This document shows positions 3,192-58,111 of a stretch of DNA of 64,000 nucleotides, piece by piece. A model generated the notes under the pieces. It ran no database searches, had not been told where the DNA came from, and saw nothing but the letters and a program-made list of their open reading frames with translations. The stretch is taken from contig DASRBN010000022.1 of assembly GCA_035653615.1 (NCBI GenBank), forward strand, positions 1 through 64,000, given 5' to 3'. The first letter of the stretch is position 1, and each line of letters opens with the position of its first letter. This DNA is from Ktedonobacteraceae bacterium (GTDB lineage: Bacteria > Chloroflexota > Ktedonobacteria > Ktedonobacterales > Ktedonobacteraceae). A program made the translations under genes and the position numbers.

Positions 3192-3275
3192 GTAACTGAA
3201 ACGGGGTCAATCCGTTTAATATAGTGTGGCACACGTGGCCCATTTGGCTTGAGTCTGATAACTGGAGAACTTGTA

Positions 3276-5252
3276 ATGGCGGCACTCGAAGGCAGAACCC
3301 TGAATCGCTACCAACTGCGAAGGATGGTTGGTAGAGGTGGTATGGCTGATGTCTACGAGGCATATGATGAACATTTTCAACGGAGGGTGGCCATCAAGGT
3401 CTTCAAGCGTGAAGAGGAAAGCATGCTGCTCCGCTTCATGCGCGAAGCACGCTTGATGGCATCGTTAAATAATCCGCACCTCGTACCTGTTTATGATATG
3501 GGCGAGTGCGAGATAGACGGTTTCACCCGCTACTATATCGTCATGCCGTTCATGGAGGGCGGCACATTACGCACGCGCATCCGGCGTTCGCCGCTGACTC
3601 TCGATGAGACCTGTACCTGCTTGCAGGATATAGCCAGTGCGCTTGATTATATACACGCCAGGGGCATTATCCACCGTGATATCAAGGCCTCCAACGTACT
3701 GCTCGATGCCGCCGGCAAATGCTATCTGACCGATCTTGGCATTGCGCACATCGTAACAGACGCCACGCAACTTACCACCACGGGCAATGTGCTTGGAACC
3801 GTCGATTATATCGCGCCAGAATTATTTAAGCCGAACCGCAAATCGGATGTCCGCAGTGACCTGTATTCACTCGGCGTATTGCTCTACGAGATGGTAACAG
3901 GTCAACTTCCTTTCACCTCAGAAAATCAGATTGCTGTCGTCTCGATGCACATGAACATGCCTCCGCCGTCACCACGCCTGCTCGCTCCACATGTCTCACC
4001 GCAGGTCGAGTGGGTCATGCTAAGAGCATTAGAAAAAGACCCTGAACAGCGTTATGCCAGCGCCGGTGAATTGGCGGATGCATTTTACCAGGCTGTGGCC
4101 CTGAGCAGCAATAGCAGCAGCCAGGAAGACAATAATGTCTCTACTATTGACGCGGATAGATTGGTTTTACCGCCGGCTATGGCTAATCCTTCCTGGCAGA
4201 ACTCTTTGCCTGTTGCAGGCGCCAGTCCTGCAAGAGGAAGGCCTTCTCCATTGAACGACGCGACGGAGGGTTATCGAAGGAGCGCGCCGGCACGTAGCGC
4301 GAACTCGCCTTCACAGAAGGCAATGGAAGACTTGCCCGCGTTTCCAGCAGACGAGCCGCCTCAACGCCGGCGTTCTCCGCTGGTCGCATTGCTGGCCCTG
4401 GTGGTGCTGATAGCGTTGCTCGTTCCCCTGGTCTACGCGCTGGTTCCGCGTGGTGATAGTGGAAATGGCAATAGCATTAATAATGCCGGGCAAACCTCGA
4501 CATCGGCAGCGAATTCGCCAACATCCAGGCCTTCTCCGACGCCGAACCTGACGGCTACGGCCCTGGCGGCCGCTGCTGCTACTGCTACCGCGCGTGCCAA
4601 TGCCACCGCGACGGCCATTGCTGCTGTTACCGCGACCGCGCGGGCGCAGGCTACTGCCACTGCCGGAGTCATCGTGACGGCAACATCCGGCAAGCCGGGT
4701 TACTCGGATGCATTGAATAATGCCAACAATCCCGCTACTGTAGCCGCCGATTGGGATCAGAGTAGTTCATGCGTCTTCCAGTCTGATGGCTATCACGCCA
4801 TATCGGGGGGTGGATTGCAGGGCTGCAAGGAAGCCGCGAATACATACCAGAATGTCGCCATCACCGTCAATATGCGTATTCTCAGCGGGCATTCCGGTGG
4901 CCTCTTTTTCCGCGTGAACACCAATTTCTTCGGCAGTTATTCCGGCTACCTGTTCGAGATAGACAGCACCGGCAGGTACAAGATTTCCCGCTCTTCGAAT
5001 TATTCGCTCAACATTACCACCTTGCAGGATTGGACGGCTTCATCGGCTATCAAGCAAGGTAATGCGGTCACAAATACCTTGCAGGTGATTGCGAAAGGAA
5101 ACAGCCTGTCTTTCTATGTGAACGGTGTGTTTCTCGTCACATTGACCGATTCAACCTATTCATCAGCTGGCGGAGTTGCCTTCCTCGCGTCAGGCTCTGG
5201 TACTCCAACCGAGGTGGTGTATAGTAATCTAAAGATATATCCGTCTTCGTAG
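3276..5252 (+). CDS. Transmembrane PknB-type Ser/Thr protein kinase with secreted LamG-like domain
   Basis: A 658-residue receptor-like kinase. The cytoplasmic kinase domain spans about residues 10-275: glycine loop GRGGMADVY, catalytic Lys in VAIKVFK (about 41), HRDIKASNVLL (about 133), DLG in place of DFG (about 152) and APE. A Pro/Ser-rich linker follows, then one membrane segment (about 368-390), an Ala/Thr repeat linker (about 425-468), and a secreted beta-sandwich of about 190 residues resembling LamG/DUF1080-like domains. The secreted part has a C-x-F…YH…C signature shared with three proteins at 53.9-57.6 kb. ATG 3276 has GGAG at 3264-3267; an in-frame TTG at 3249 has no such site. The stop TAG lies inside a dispersed repeat. 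It probably senses an envelope or extracellular ligand and phosphorylates unknown targets. Confidence 0.93.
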   Translation: MAALEGRTLNRYQLRRMVGRGGMADVYEAYDEHFQRRVAIKVFKREEESMLLRFMREARLMASLNNPHLVPVYDMGECEIDGFTRYYIVMPFMEGGTLRTRIRRSPLTLDETCTCLQDIASALDYIHARGIIHRDIKASNVLLDAAGKCYLTDLGIAHIVTDATQLTTTGNVLGTVDYIAPELFKPNRKSDVRSDLYSLGVLLYEMVTGQLPFTSENQIAVVSMHMNMPPPSPRLLAPHVSPQVEWVMLRALEKDPEQRYASAGELADAFYQAVALSSNSSSQEDNNVSTIDADRLVLPPAMANPSWQNSLPVAGASPARGRPSPLNDATEGYRRSAPARSANSPSQKAMEDLPAFPADEPPQRRRSPLVALLALVVLIALLVPLVYALVPRGDSGNGNSINNAGQTSTSAANSPTSRPSPTPNLTATALAAAAATATARANATATAIAAVTATARAQATATAGVIVTATSGKPGYSDALNNANNPATVAADWDQSSSCVFQSDGYHAISGGGLQGCKEAANTYQNVAITVNMRILSGHSGGLFFRVNTNFFGSYSGYLFEIDSTGRYKISRSSNYSLNITTLQDWTASSAIKQGNAVTNTLQVIAKGNSLSFYVNGVFLVTLTDSTYSSAGGVAFLASGSGTPTEVVYSNLKIYPSS

Positions 5253-53288: not shown

Positions 53289-53813
53289 CTACTTGACCAC
53301 AGAGACAGGTAGCCTCATGCCTGCCAGATAATGCCCGCGCATCTGGCAGGCCATCTCATAACGGCCCATGGTCGAAGGCGCGAATGTGTAGTTGATAGCG
53401 TCGACTGTTCCCGGATAGATAAGGTCAATCCCGATAAGCATGTCGTTATACTGCGTATAGATATTCTCCGGAGTGCCGTTGGGCTTGTCGGGTATGAAGG
53501 TGAAAGCATGATAGTTATTGCTGCCATTGGTAATAATGAAGTGGTAATGGACACCAACATGAAAAACGGTCACCGAGGAAATAATCTTGTAGTCAATCAG
53601 CAAGACGTGTACAGTTACCGAGCCTGGCAAGGGAGCCTGGTTATAAACTTGCTGGGTAGGAAAGGGATCGCTGACCTGGGTAGAGGTTGCTGCCGTTTGC
53701 GTAGATGAACCGGGACTGGACGAACTATGCGCGGCAATGGATATGCCCGCGAAGATGACGATGAGCAGAGAAAGCACCAGTAATGATATTTTCCCTATGA
53801 TCCGCTTGTTCAT
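53289..53813 (-). CDS. Membrane-anchored cupredoxin-like copper protein
   Basis: A 174-residue protein with an N-terminal membrane anchor, a Ser/Thr-rich spacer, and a cupredoxin domain. Candidate copper ligands are His in NNYHAFTF and the C-x4-H-x4-M set in ACQMRGHYLAGM, the arrangement of blue-copper sites. ATG 53813 has a GGAG ten bases upstream; 53849 would add twelve residues. It may shuttle electrons outside the membrane, and resembles COX-II or plastocyanin-like carriers, but no oxidase genes are adjacent. Confidence 0.8.
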   Translation of the reverse strand: MNKRIIGKISLLVLSLLIVIFAGISIAAHSSSSPGSSTQTAATSTQVSDPFPTQQVYNQAPLPGSVTVHVLLIDYKIISSVTVFHVGVHYHFIITNGSNNYHAFTFIPDKPNGTPENIYTQYNDMLIGIDLIYPGTVDAINYTFAPSTMGRYEMACQMRGHYLAGMRLPVSVVK

Positions 53814-53913
53814 GGATATCCAACTCCATTTCTTCACCGGTTTACTCATCTACCTGACTGAATGCTAATCTGGATGCATTATAGTTAATTATGATTGTTT
53901 GCGTCAATATCTT

Positions 53914-54948
53914 TCACAACTTCCACACCTGCGCGTTGCTGAACTCCACCTCGGTCGGCATACCATAATCAATTGCTGCCACTCCGATCTGCCCGGCGCT
54001 GAGCGCGCTATCGGTCGCAGCGGTAACCAGTTGTTGATTGACATAAAGATAGAGCAAGTTTTTATCGGCGAGAACAGCTACGTCGTTCTGCTGGCCATAT
54101 CCGGCGTTGATGGCGTCGCTGACTCCGCTGCTTAGCATCTTCACGGACGTATTATTGTTATAGATTTCAAGCGTAAAGGAACCATCTACCCCCACGCGAA
54201 AGAGGTAAAACTGGCCTTGTGACTTATTAGCACGGAACAGGATACCACCCTGGCTGCCCTGATCAATAGTCATCTGTATCTCATAGACGAAATTGCTGAA
54301 ATTGGTGGCATCCGCGTAGCAGGGTTGGAGGAAGTTGGTCTGGGCTTCTCGCGCATGGTAATCCTGGTTAAAGAAGCATCCAGTATTTCCGTTTCCTGTA
54401 AGACCCTCGTCCCAGCGGTTGCCGCCTGTATTGTCTGTCAAAGCGTCGGTGAGCATAGGGTTTCCGGTTGTATCATTGGACAGCAAATTTTCCAATGCTG
54501 TCGCCGTCGCCGTTCCTAAATTACTGATCGCGCCTGCCGTGGCGGTTGCTCCGGCCTGGGCGGTAGCAGTGGCGAGAATACCGGCCTGTGCGGTTGCCAG
54601 GGCCGAATTTGTCGCCTGCACCACCACCTGTGTCTTTGCCAGAGCCGTATTTTGCACCGACAGCGTTGACTGCGCCTGAGCTGTGGCCTGGGTCGTAAGC
54701 TGGGTGTGATACTGCGTGGTTGCTGCGTAGATAATAAGGCCCAGACCACCCCCTATCAGGGCGGTCGCAAGTACAATAATGAGGATCATCATACCCGGTG
54801 AAATCCCCTGGCGCTTCCTGATGGTTCGCGGCGGCGGGGGCCAGGAGTATGCAACTTCTTTGGGTAGAGGAGCCAGATCTTTTACTGTCGGTTGTTCGTG
54901 AAATGGCTCCTCTACTTTGTCTACGTGTGTCTGGGAATCATCGGGCAT
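53914..54948 (-). CDS. Membrane-anchored LamG-like ectodomain protein (short Pro-rich cytoplasmic tail)
   Basis: A 344-residue protein. A short Pro-rich N-terminus (about 1-48), one membrane segment (about 50-75), an Ala/Gln/Thr-rich linker (about 80-150), and a secreted beta-sandwich of about 190 residues follow. The signature TGCFFNQDYHAREAQTNFLQ ending in PCY, with VYEIQMTIDQGSQGGILFR, GVDGSFTLEI and NLLYLYVNQQ, matches the kinase ectodomain at 4.7-5.2 kb and the two upstream paralogues. AGGAATAAAG precedes the ATG. Confidence 0.8.
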   Translation of the reverse strand: MPDDSQTHVDKVEEPFHEQPTVKDLAPLPKEVAYSWPPPPRTIRKRQGISPGMMILIIVLATALIGGGLGLIIYAATTQYHTQLTTQATAQAQSTLSVQNTALAKTQVVVQATNSALATAQAGILATATAQAGATATAGAISNLGTATATALENLLSNDTTGNPMLTDALTDNTGGNRWDEGLTGNGNTGCFFNQDYHAREAQTNFLQPCYADATNFSNFVYEIQMTIDQGSQGGILFRANKSQGQFYLFRVGVDGSFTLEIYNNNTSVKMLSSGVSDAINAGYGQQNDVAVLADKNLLYLYVNQQLVTAATDSALSAGQIGVAAIDYGMPTEVEFSNAQVWKL

Positions 54949-54981
54949 CTTTATTCCTCACAACCTGTGTGCCGTAGATAT

Positions 54982-56064
54982 TTAATCCCAAAGGGTTTCG
55001 TTTGTAAATGCGATATCTGCCGAATTTGTATATATATCCGTACTCGCGAACAAAGCAAAGTATCCTCCCGTAAGGGTGGTCTCGGTCACCTTCGTGAGAA
55101 ACTGCCGGTTCGCGTACAGGTAGATATTACTTCCCTGCATTACCACGGTCAGAAGATTCGCCTGGTTCAGCCCTGCCCGGATCGCCGGGCTATGTCCTGA
55201 AGCTAAAGTAGCGGTGACGGCATTGTTTTCGATCATGGTCAGCAAATAGCTGCCATCTTTAGCGATAGCAAAGACATACGAGCTCAGCTGCGGCCCGGTT
55301 TCATGGAACAGAATACCCCCGGCGGAGCCCTGGATGAAAGTCATTTGTACCTGAAAAGCAAAATCGGTGTAGAATCCTACAGAAGAGCAGTAAAACCAGT
55401 GGTTTTGTGTTGAAACTCGTAAGTGATAAGCGCTATTGATGAAACTACATGAGGCATAAGGTCTGTTGATAACGTCCCAGAAACCGGCATCATTATTTGC
55501 AAGTGTCTGATTCACTAACACAGGCTGGTGAATGGCACGTTCGTATATACCCTGCGGTGATTGGGCGAAAGCTGTAGCCGATGCTTTCGCTATCACTTGA
55601 GCAGTGGCGGTTGCTTGCGCGTGTAGCTTTGCAGGTTGTGCTATGGCTGCGTAATAGAAAAGCCCGATTCCACTAGCAATAACGCAAAGAGCAACTACCA
55701 CTAGAAGAATAACCATTCCACGAGAAAGCCGTTGCCTCTGTGCTACTTTTGAGCCGTTCTCAATCTGGCCCGCGGGCATGGGAAATGGCCGGGCATATCC
55801 CGGAGGTACCTGTGGCATTGCTAAGGAAGGGCTCTGCGGCGGATAATTCGGAACAGATTCTGGCGCTTGACTAACGACATCAGGTACGCTAAATTCCATG
55901 AAAGGGCCGGGAGCATAGGATGGAGGGACAGCTTCCTGCGAACTGCTCTCCGCATTGACAGATACCAGGGTTGGAGTTGAAATGTCAGCAGGCGTAACCT
56001 TACCACACTGAGGACAGGTCTCCTGGTTTGCTGGAAGCCGAGATCCACACCAGTTACAATACAT
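54982..56064 (-). CDS. Zinc-ribbon + transmembrane + LamG-like ectodomain protein
   Basis: A 360-residue protein. The first residues form a zinc ribbon (YCNWCGS…CPQCGK, four Cys). A disordered Pro-rich region, one membrane segment (about 125-150), an Ala/Thr linker and the secreted domain follow (ASCSFINSAYHLRVSTQ; YC). The domain carries VQMTFIQGSAGGILF and NIYLYANRQFLTKV. The GGGGGAAGTAATTT before the ATG is a good ribosome binding site. It is the middle paralogue of the cluster. Confidence 0.82.
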   Translation of the reverse strand: MYCNWCGSRLPANQETCPQCGKVTPADISTPTLVSVNAESSSQEAVPPSYAPGPFMEFSVPDVVSQAPESVPNYPPQSPSLAMPQVPPGYARPFPMPAGQIENGSKVAQRQRLSRGMVILLVVVALCVIASGIGLFYYAAIAQPAKLHAQATATAQVIAKASATAFAQSPQGIYERAIHQPVLVNQTLANNDAGFWDVINRPYASCSFINSAYHLRVSTQNHWFYCSSVGFYTDFAFQVQMTFIQGSAGGILFHETGPQLSSYVFAIAKDGSYLLTMIENNAVTATLASGHSPAIRAGLNQANLLTVVMQGSNIYLYANRQFLTKVTETTLTGGYFALFASTDIYTNSADIAFTNETLWD

Positions 56065-56183
56065 AAATTACTTCCCCCTTTGATTAAAATTGCAATGTAC
56101 GCGATGATTTCAGGATGCCGATCATGCTACTGAACCCCATTTCACAATGATCGCCAGCATAGAAAAGAAAAATGAACCGGGTC

Positions 56184-57608
56184 TTATGATAACTTCCACA
56201 CCTGAAGGTTGTTGAACGCAACATCTGTGGATTTGGTATCACTCTCGGCGAACAAACCGATCTGCCCAGAAGTGTAGCGCGAATCGGTTGTGCCATCCAG
56301 GTACTGCTGATTAACGTAAAAATAGAGATTACCACGTTGGGCAATGATCGTAATCGTATTCGTCTGGTTTCCTGTATTGATAATGCTAGAGGAGCCGCTT
56401 AGCAAGTGTTGTGCGTGTGACCCCTGTGCATCTACATAAACATACAGGTCGTAAGCTCCGTTCTGACTGATGCGGAAGAGGTAAAACATAGAGCTTGAGC
56501 TATTTGCCCGAAAGACAATGCCGCCCTCATCTCCCTGCACTATCGTCATTTGCACCTGGAGCGCGAAATTATCAAAGTTTAATATCTGCGAGTAACAAGG
56601 TTGGAAAAGTCCCGTTTTGTTGATCATCGAATGATAGGCCCCGTTTGAGAATCCGCAACTGCCGCCACTGGGATTTGTAGGGAACTCGTCCCAGGTGTTA
56701 TTGTCTTGAGCATTCAGAGGGTCTGAAGTAGTAGGACTGCCGCTCGTAACCTGCTGGTAGAAGCTTTGTAAAGCTGTGGCGGTAGCTGAAGCGGCAGCGC
56801 TGGCGGAAGCCGCCGCGGTGGCAGTAGCTCCTGCGATCGCTTGCGAGGTGCTGATTGCATTCGCTGTTGCCTGACCGTTAGCCAGGGCAGTTCCGGTGAT
56901 CTGGGCCTGCGCAGTTCCGGTGATCTGAGTCTGAGCGGTAGCTGTTGCCTGCGCATTTTTTTGTGGCTCGTATACCTGGGTAATATAGACGGCCACGCTA
57001 CCCCCGATCAAAATCAGAACCAGTAGAACGATCAGCAAGGCAACACCGGCAGAAAACCCCGACCGTTTGCGCTGCGGTGGAACGGATGGCGGCGCTGCTT
57101 GCGTCCCTCCCTGGTTATATCCCGCGTAGCCGGCGGGAGCCTGGGCTTGATTGAGAAATAGCGGTTGCTGTCCTGAACTTTGTGCTGGAGCAGTATAATT
57201 GGGGTAATTGCTCTGTTGCCCCGGAGTCGCATAACTGGGAGAAGATGCAATCGTTGGCTCAACCGGCGCGTTTACATAATGAGGAAACGGAGCCGGTGAA
57301 GGCTGGATCGGCATGAACTCTGTCGCATTGCCCTGCCCGGCAGGATAATTTGGCTGGCTGCCAGACTGTTCAGGGGACGCAATAGAAACGGTGAGAATAA
57401 GATCACCCGGAGGGCCGCCATAGGGGCTCATATCGCCCTGTCCTCTCAGGCGAATCTCCTCACCATTGCGAATGCCTGCGCGTACAGGCACAATAATGCG
57501 CCGCCCGCCTGGTAAATTAAGCGTGCGGCTGCTTCCGGTTCTTGCCTCTTCCTGGCTGATTGCTAAAGTCGCCCGGATATCACCCGTTTGAGGTCCTTCA
57601 ATTGCCAT
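56184..57608 (-). CDS. DnaJ-C-like domain + transmembrane + LamG-like ectodomain protein
   Basis: A 474-residue protein. Residues about 10-80 resemble the DnaJ C-terminal substrate-binding fold (ATLAISQEEARTG, LNLPGGRRIIVPVRAGIRNGEEIRLRGQGDM, GDLILTVSI; key GDL and G-rich turn). A Pro/Gln-rich region, a membrane segment (about 187-210), an Ala/Thr/Gln linker and the shared ectodomain follow (SCGFSNGAYHSMINKTGLFQ; PCY). The DnaJ part has no J-domain or zinc centre. It could bring a peptide-binding module to a surface sensor. Confidence 0.82.
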   Translation of the reverse strand: MAIEGPQTGDIRATLAISQEEARTGSSRTLNLPGGRRIIVPVRAGIRNGEEIRLRGQGDMSPYGGPPGDLILTVSIASPEQSGSQPNYPAGQGNATEFMPIQPSPAPFPHYVNAPVEPTIASSPSYATPGQQSNYPNYTAPAQSSGQQPLFLNQAQAPAGYAGYNQGGTQAAPPSVPPQRKRSGFSAGVALLIVLLVLILIGGSVAVYITQVYEPQKNAQATATAQTQITGTAQAQITGTALANGQATANAISTSQAIAGATATAAASASAAASATATALQSFYQQVTSGSPTTSDPLNAQDNNTWDEFPTNPSGGSCGFSNGAYHSMINKTGLFQPCYSQILNFDNFALQVQMTIVQGDEGGIVFRANSSSSMFYLFRISQNGAYDLYVYVDAQGSHAQHLLSGSSSIINTGNQTNTITIIAQRGNLYFYVNQQYLDGTTDSRYTSGQIGLFAESDTKSTDVAFNNLQVWKLS

Positions 57609-57799: not shown

Positions 57800-58111
57800 C
57801 TATACCATGCCGAGTTCCCATTTCGCATCTTCCGTCATGCGGTCAGGCGACCAGGGCGGGTCGAACGTCATGTTGACTTTGCACGATTTAACGTTCTCTA
57901 CTTCTCCCACGCGCATCTCGACCTCTTCAATCACTTCGCCTGCCATAGGGCAACCCAGCGCGGTAAGCGTCATCGTAACATCAACGTGGCCGGTCTCATT
58001 ATTGATATCAACATTATAAATGAGGCCAAGGTCAACAATGTTCACAGGAATCTCCGGGTCATAACATTCGCGCAGTGCATCCATGACCTCTGCTTCATTA
58101 ATCTCTGCCAT
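57800..58111 (-). CDS. MIP18/SufT-like Fe-S assembly factor (DUF59)
   Basis: A 103-residue protein. DPEIPVNIVDLGLIYNV, the conserved Cys in TALGCPMAG and the PPWSPDRMTEDA C-terminus are characteristic of MIP18/PaaD/SufT proteins, which help insert iron-sulfur clusters or assemble di-metal oxygenases. AAAGGATCTGGATAG precedes the ATG. No suf genes are adjacent. Confidence 0.92.
   Translation of the reverse strand: MAEINEAEVMDALRECYDPEIPVNIVDLGLIYNVDINNETGHVDVTMTLTALGCPMAGEVIEEVEMRVGEVENVKSCKVNMTFDPPWSPDRMTEDAKWELGMV

Follow-up and report, generated by a model that had tools for sequence, protein, structure and literature searches.

In a survey of Planctomycetota, single-pass kinases were found to carry DUF1080 more often than any other exclusively periplasmic domain (PMC11032199). 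These Ser/Thr kinases resemble the proteins described here in being single-pass kinases with a DUF1080 domain outside. They differ in that kinases were reported there, whereas TIR, TIR-NACHT, HTH, DnaJ_C, zinc-ribbon and tail modules are also found here, on heads that have a cysteine pair and occur in tandem clusters. The C-type lectin sensors of multicellular bacteria, diversified by diversity-generating retroelements, likewise combine one ligand-binding domain with exchangeable modules (TIR, NACHT, CHAT, kinase and others), but their lectin fold is different and unrelated (PMC10907252).

Other systems are comparable in the way they work. PknB/PASTA kinases have a cytoplasmic Hanks kinase, one helix and an extracellular wall-facing domain; here a single CBM66-like head is present and PASTA repeats are not. 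Plant lectin receptor-like kinases consist of an N-terminal, concanavalin-like extracellular head, one helix and a Ser/Thr kinase. They share these three elements with the kinases described here, but their topology is opposite and there is no sign of common descent of the architecture. The combination of a kinase with DUF1080 was already known in Planctomycetota. Neither a description of the wider multi-module family nor a paper on the Ktedonobacteria family was found, which is weak evidence, the literature having been searched largely without subscription journals.

Ktedonobacteria are a class of filamentous soil bacteria. Computation shows that a family of N-in/C-out single-pass proteins is expanded in this class, with a CBM66-like head borne on an Ala/Thr-rich stalk and an inner part that has been repeatedly exchanged. 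Four members are encoded in the window, the stretch of 64,000 nucleotides analysed here.

The four proteins of the window

The four open reading frames were found where the first-pass annotation had placed them. Three of them, the DnaJ_C-linked, zinc-ribbon and tail-type genes, are in tandem at 53914-57608. The features are as follows.

3249..5252, + strand: kinase member, 667 aa, TTG start; Ser/Thr kinase, membrane helix, Ala/Thr linker, ectodomain
3309..4058, + strand: protein kinase domain of the kinase member (Pfam PF00069, 165.8 bits)
4380..4436, + strand: membrane helix of the kinase member, aa 378-396, Arg-rich at its N side
4674..5243, + strand: ectodomain of the kinase member, predicted CBM66-like beta-sandwich (AlphaFold pLDDT 93.1)
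53914..54948, - strand: tail-type member, 344 aa, last gene of the trio; no cytoplasmic domain recognised
53917..54483, - strand: ectodomain of the tail-type member
54826..54843, - strand: conserved W-P-P-P-P-R motif of the tail-type member, preceding the membrane helix; common to the last cluster gene of relatives
54982..56064, - strand: zinc-ribbon member, 360 aa, middle gene of the trio
54985..55548, - strand: ectodomain of the zinc-ribbon member
55999..56061, - strand: N-terminal zinc ribbon (CxxC...CxxC) of the zinc-ribbon member (Zn_Ribbon_1, 24.2 bits, slightly below the cut-off of 25)
56184..57608, - strand: DnaJ_C-linked member, 474 aa, gene 1 of the trio (Pfam DnaJ_C, 40.4 bits, cut-off 26.6)
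56190..56750, - strand: ectodomain of the DnaJ_C-linked member (AlphaFold pLDDT 92.9, pTM 0.89); Cys pair at domain residues 32 and 52
56751..56987, - strand: Ala/Thr/Gln-rich linker of the DnaJ_C-linked member (31% A, 17% T, 15% Q)
56988..57044, - strand: membrane helix of the DnaJ_C-linked member, aa 189-207
57378..57578, - strand: cytoplasmic DnaJ_C-like single beta-domain of the DnaJ_C-linked member
57800..58111, - strand: SufT-like FeS_assembly_P gene, bordering the trio

As had been proposed, the four proteins share a C-terminal ectodomain behind one membrane helix and an Ala/Thr-rich linker (28-37% Ala, 9-22% Thr). Freed of their linkers, the ectodomains align over about 190 residues with 28-43% identity (BLASTP E 1e-9 to 1e-47, with low-complexity masking on). 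When a profile is built from any three heads, the remaining one scores 87-179 bits, compared with a maximum of 13 bits among 5000 shuffles. The similarity is therefore neither derived from the linkers nor due to chance, and a low-complexity match was rejected since the similarity persists with the linkers cut off, masking on and the shuffle control. Unrelated folds were rejected as well, since two structure models computed from different alignments show one fold. In the tree, the kinase ectodomain falls in a clade apart from the three tandem ones, and the loops of the heads vary strongly.

The signature that had been read across the four heads, from C-x-F...YH...C to a YVNxQ strand, is exact in the DnaJ-linked and tail-type proteins. 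The other two deviate, the kinase with VNMRILSGHSGGLFFR / YVNGV and the zinc-ribbon protein with VQMTFIQGSAGGILFH / YANRQ. Two cysteines occupy equal positions in all four heads, one of those in the tail-type protein being shifted by a column in the alignment. The Pro-rich tail that had been assigned to the latter corresponds to the conserved W-P-P-P-P-R motif, which is short and lies at the membrane rather than forming a long Pro-rich region.

The kinase is of the Hanks Ser/Thr type (Gly loop, catalytic Lys, HRD, D-x-G), with the Gly loop, the AIK Lys, HRDIKxxN and APE all present and DLG replacing D-F-G. An identity as a PASTA kinase (PknB/Stk1) was rejected: the NCBIfam PASTA-kinase model scored 310.8 bits, under its full-length cut-off of 450, over the cytoplasmic part and membrane region, and the Pfam scan found no PASTA domain. 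An operon of the kinase gene with metabolic neighbours was also rejected, the orthologues in L115, L120 and L163 having no flanking gene in common with the window. A DnaJ chaperone was discarded for 56184-57608, where the Pfam scan found no J domain and one half only of DnaJ_C (model positions 1-73 of 152).

Fold and distribution of the ectodomain

AlphaFold models were obtained for the DnaJ-linked head from a 43-row alignment (pLDDT 92.9, pTM 0.89) and for that of the kinase, with 14 rows of kinase-clade heads as input (pLDDT 93.1, pTM 0.89). The two alignments differ but have four rows in common, including the window kinase. For both models, the nearest solved structure found by Foldseek is the CBM66 of the Bacillus subtilis levanase (E 3.5e-10 and 1.3e-9), and the profile of the 43 heads detects CBM66 among PDB sequences with E 7e-10 to 9e-10. 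These matches indicate that the ectodomain is in all probability a distant PF06439 (DUF1080)/CBM66-like concanavalin sandwich. It resembles the SacC levanase module (PDB 4b1m/4b1l/4azz) in its beta-sandwich fold, with TM-scores of 0.72-0.84 normalised to the CBM, but the identity is 15-16%, and in the present family the domain forms the head of a membrane protein and has a Cys pair. PF06439 is the main Pfam family matching the heads, with weak Laminin_G_3 matches in some relatives; three of the four window heads nevertheless score under the cut-off of 26.8 bits (kinase 28.5, DnaJ-linked 21.8, tail 21.5, zinc-ribbon 12.6 bits). Since the CBM66 ligand differs between members, fructan ends for one, xanthan and not levan for another (PMC11002231), that of the heads cannot be deduced from the family.

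The ectodomain was found in 47 of the 47 genomes searched within the class, those of the window's family having 7-26 copies each. About 20 are encoded in the window's genome (6.59 Mb), nine of them on kinases by ORF count; kinase matches number 81 genome-wide. A second tandem cluster with this head in the same genome (L041:4243-10002) comprises two kinases and one Pro-rich member. Matches in the wider phylum come from 114 of 350 genomes, and those outside the class are no better than about 1e-30. In 10 genomes from outside the class, the proteins are mostly lipoproteins or signal-peptide proteins, by the appearance of their N-termini, and lack a cytoplasmic module. Zinc-ribbon and kinase versions of the head are also found there, and the head-plus-module arrangement is apparently older than Ktedonobacteria, or has spread beyond them. 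A mobile or phage origin was rejected, searches of phage and plasmid records giving no match.

Of 40 domain matches in these 10 outside genomes, some repeated across overlapping loci, none has both cysteines, which suggests that the pair arose on the Ktedonobacteria branch. Among 141 members, 98 have both cysteines, 37 neither and 6 only one. On the tree these states amount to only about seven changes, and the independent-pair test had no power and gave no significance; the co-occurrence is no more than suggestive of a possible disulfide.

Inner modules and possible roles

The 141 members come from the window's genome, from six relatives that were searched in full, from two additional tandem clusters and from named contigs. 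Their cytoplasmic parts are of at least eight kinds: 50 kinases, 8 kinases with DnaJ_C, 3 DnaJ_C alone, 3 TIR, 31 zinc ribbons and 46 others, which take in HTH, TIR-NACHT and caspase proteins, short tails and a few fragments. The earlier view of one surface domain with different inner modules is thus well supported. Profile search and tabulation of the cytoplasmic partners revealed a wider exchange than had been seen, adding TIR, TIR-NACHT, HTH and kinase+DnaJ_C versions. TIR_2 scores exceed the Pfam cut-off of 28 in L043 (32.7 bits), L085 (38.5) and L138 (49.9), and fall below it in L174 (22.8). The kinase+DnaJ_C architecture was recognised by Pfam in L042 and L103.

On a tree of 89 heads, many branches of which have weak support, at least 26 module changes are required, compared with 8 if each module had arisen once and 51 with shuffled labels. 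Exchange was therefore repeated, yet modules also follow head lineages.

Several architectures were seen in single loci or small groups. Five successive kinase+DnaJ_C+ectodomain genes are present in L103 (G035:C1:5906000-5924000). One ORF (L138:2198-5689, G036) encodes a ThsB-like TIR, a NACHT ATPase, several membrane helices and a terminal ectodomain that is apparently outside; the PADLOC defence models matched only the ThsB-like TIR, with weaker TIR/ATPase matches, in L138, and gave only generic kinase matches for the window kinase. In L090:6512-7564, L126:2053-3180 and L157:1959-3020, which form one clade (support 99), HTH_3 is joined to a membrane helix and the head; these are possible membrane-held transcription regulators. 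In the actinobacterium Kibdelosporangium banguiense (L094:6017-7579), a caspase-family (Peptidase_C14) protein has one helix and a related ectodomain.

Positive charge lies at the N side of the helix in 118 of the 135 helix-bearing members, which places the N-terminus inside and the head outside. The favoured reading, considered somewhat probable, is that these modular proteins, which cross the membrane once, are receptors or wall sensors and have a predicted, probably glycan-binding head. A receptor or sensor role would fit the predicted topology and fold. The head would bind a glycan of the cell wall, of the cell's own capsule or of a foreign polysaccharide. This binding, or clustering of heads on their stalks, would alter oligomerisation and thereby bring the inner module into action, possibly by kinase trans-activation or TIR assembly. 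The zinc-ribbon, tail and DnaJ_C members, which have no catalytic module, may be wall tethers or co-receptors, their genes lying together in one ancestral tandem locus. The first-pass annotation had supposed one common ligand, which is doubtful as the heads are merely 25-43% identical, their loops are highly variable and the kinase head belongs to a different clade.

Counted against this reading are the zinc-ribbon and tail members, which have no known output domain, so that some members may be anchors and not receptors. No phosphatase, substrate or regulon was linked, and outside the class the domain is mostly on lipoproteins or secreted proteins without a cytoplasmic module. The head might only tether the protein to wall-linked polysaccharide and position the inner module, passing no ligand signal. 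The many members whose inner part is just a zinc ribbon or a short tail would suit this, as would a head with the fold of a carbohydrate-binding module and the lipoprotein versions outside the class, which fit simple attachment. Pure tethering is nonetheless regarded as unlikely: repeated fusion to kinase, TIR, TIR-NACHT, HTH and caspase modules is typical of signalling inputs, and anchoring would not need as many as the 7-26 divergent copies found in each genome of the window's family.

The nature of the ligand was weighed in the same way. Thrombospondin C-terminal domains also obtain good Foldseek scores, so that the fold alone leaves the ligand class unfixed, and the variable loops too would be compatible with a head that recognises a protein or itself, in homotypic adhesion or assembly, instead of a sugar. 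As the closest profile and fold matches are carbohydrate-binding or glycan-acting proteins, such recognition seems quite unlikely. It is highly improbable that the head acts as an enzyme at the cell surface, belonging to the 3-keto-disaccharide hydrolase family (PF06439) and controlled by the cytoplasmic modules. PF06439 is indeed the Pfam match of the heads, a characterised member hydrolyses 3-ketotrehalose (PMC9007349), and BT2157 (3osd) is among the fold matches; but the kinase head alone passes the Pfam cut-off, CBM66 outscores the hydrolases by both fold and profile, and among polar residues conservation is limited to a few Asp, one His and one Arg, whereas no Glu is conserved.

If the receptor or wall-sensor reading is correct, it defines a coherent receptor family in a large filamentous group about whose perception of neighbours and surfaces little is known. 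It would provide an assayable function for many proteins whose one recognisable feature so far is a zinc ribbon, a kinase domain or a weak glycosyl-hydrolase-like match. Because kinases, TIR, NACHT and DNA-binding proteins have this outer domain in common, a ligand identified for a single head would allow all the others to be examined in the same way. With its sugar-module-like head, the family resembles a bacterial counterpart of modular cell-surface receptors. A bolder proposal, which is possible but doubtful, is a receptor superfamily specific to the Ktedonobacteria lineage with a logic like that of animal and plant pattern-recognition receptors. In such a filamentous bacterium, a disulfide-locked, diversifying CBM66-type glycan-binding head on a stalk would pass its signal to a kinase, a TIR/NACHT or caspase-type module or a DNA-binding domain held at the membrane, and would serve to sense wall integrity or to tell self from non-self.

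The tandem locus

The tandem trio is an ancestral locus beside the SufT-like gene, judging from the gene order in relatives. The SufT-like gene borders the ectodomain cluster in all seven relatives whose upstream flank could be read; the window copy is 75-86% identical to theirs, and identity between genomes is 68-91%. In relatives, the first slot holds a DnaJ_C, zinc-ribbon or short-tail member and the middle genes are mostly zinc ribbons. The last gene has the WPP-type juxtamembrane motif in most genomes, and the heads of this slot form one clade (9 rows, support 99). DnaJ-linked heads group with short-tailed heads from the same slot (support 91), which implies an orthologous position with an altered inner part and is the clearest sign of module exchange.

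In two loci (L084:7736-8623 and L056:2242-3129), a zinc-ribbon cluster gene matches the ectodomain over only about 60 residues and is perhaps frameshifted or broken. The far end of the cluster is usually near seryl-tRNA synthetase in those relatives whose far flank could be read; the window has there, downstream of the trio (53289-53849, - strand), a gene for a small membrane-anchored, cupredoxin-like protein with a weak match to the CopI cupredoxin model and a C-x4-H-x4-M end.
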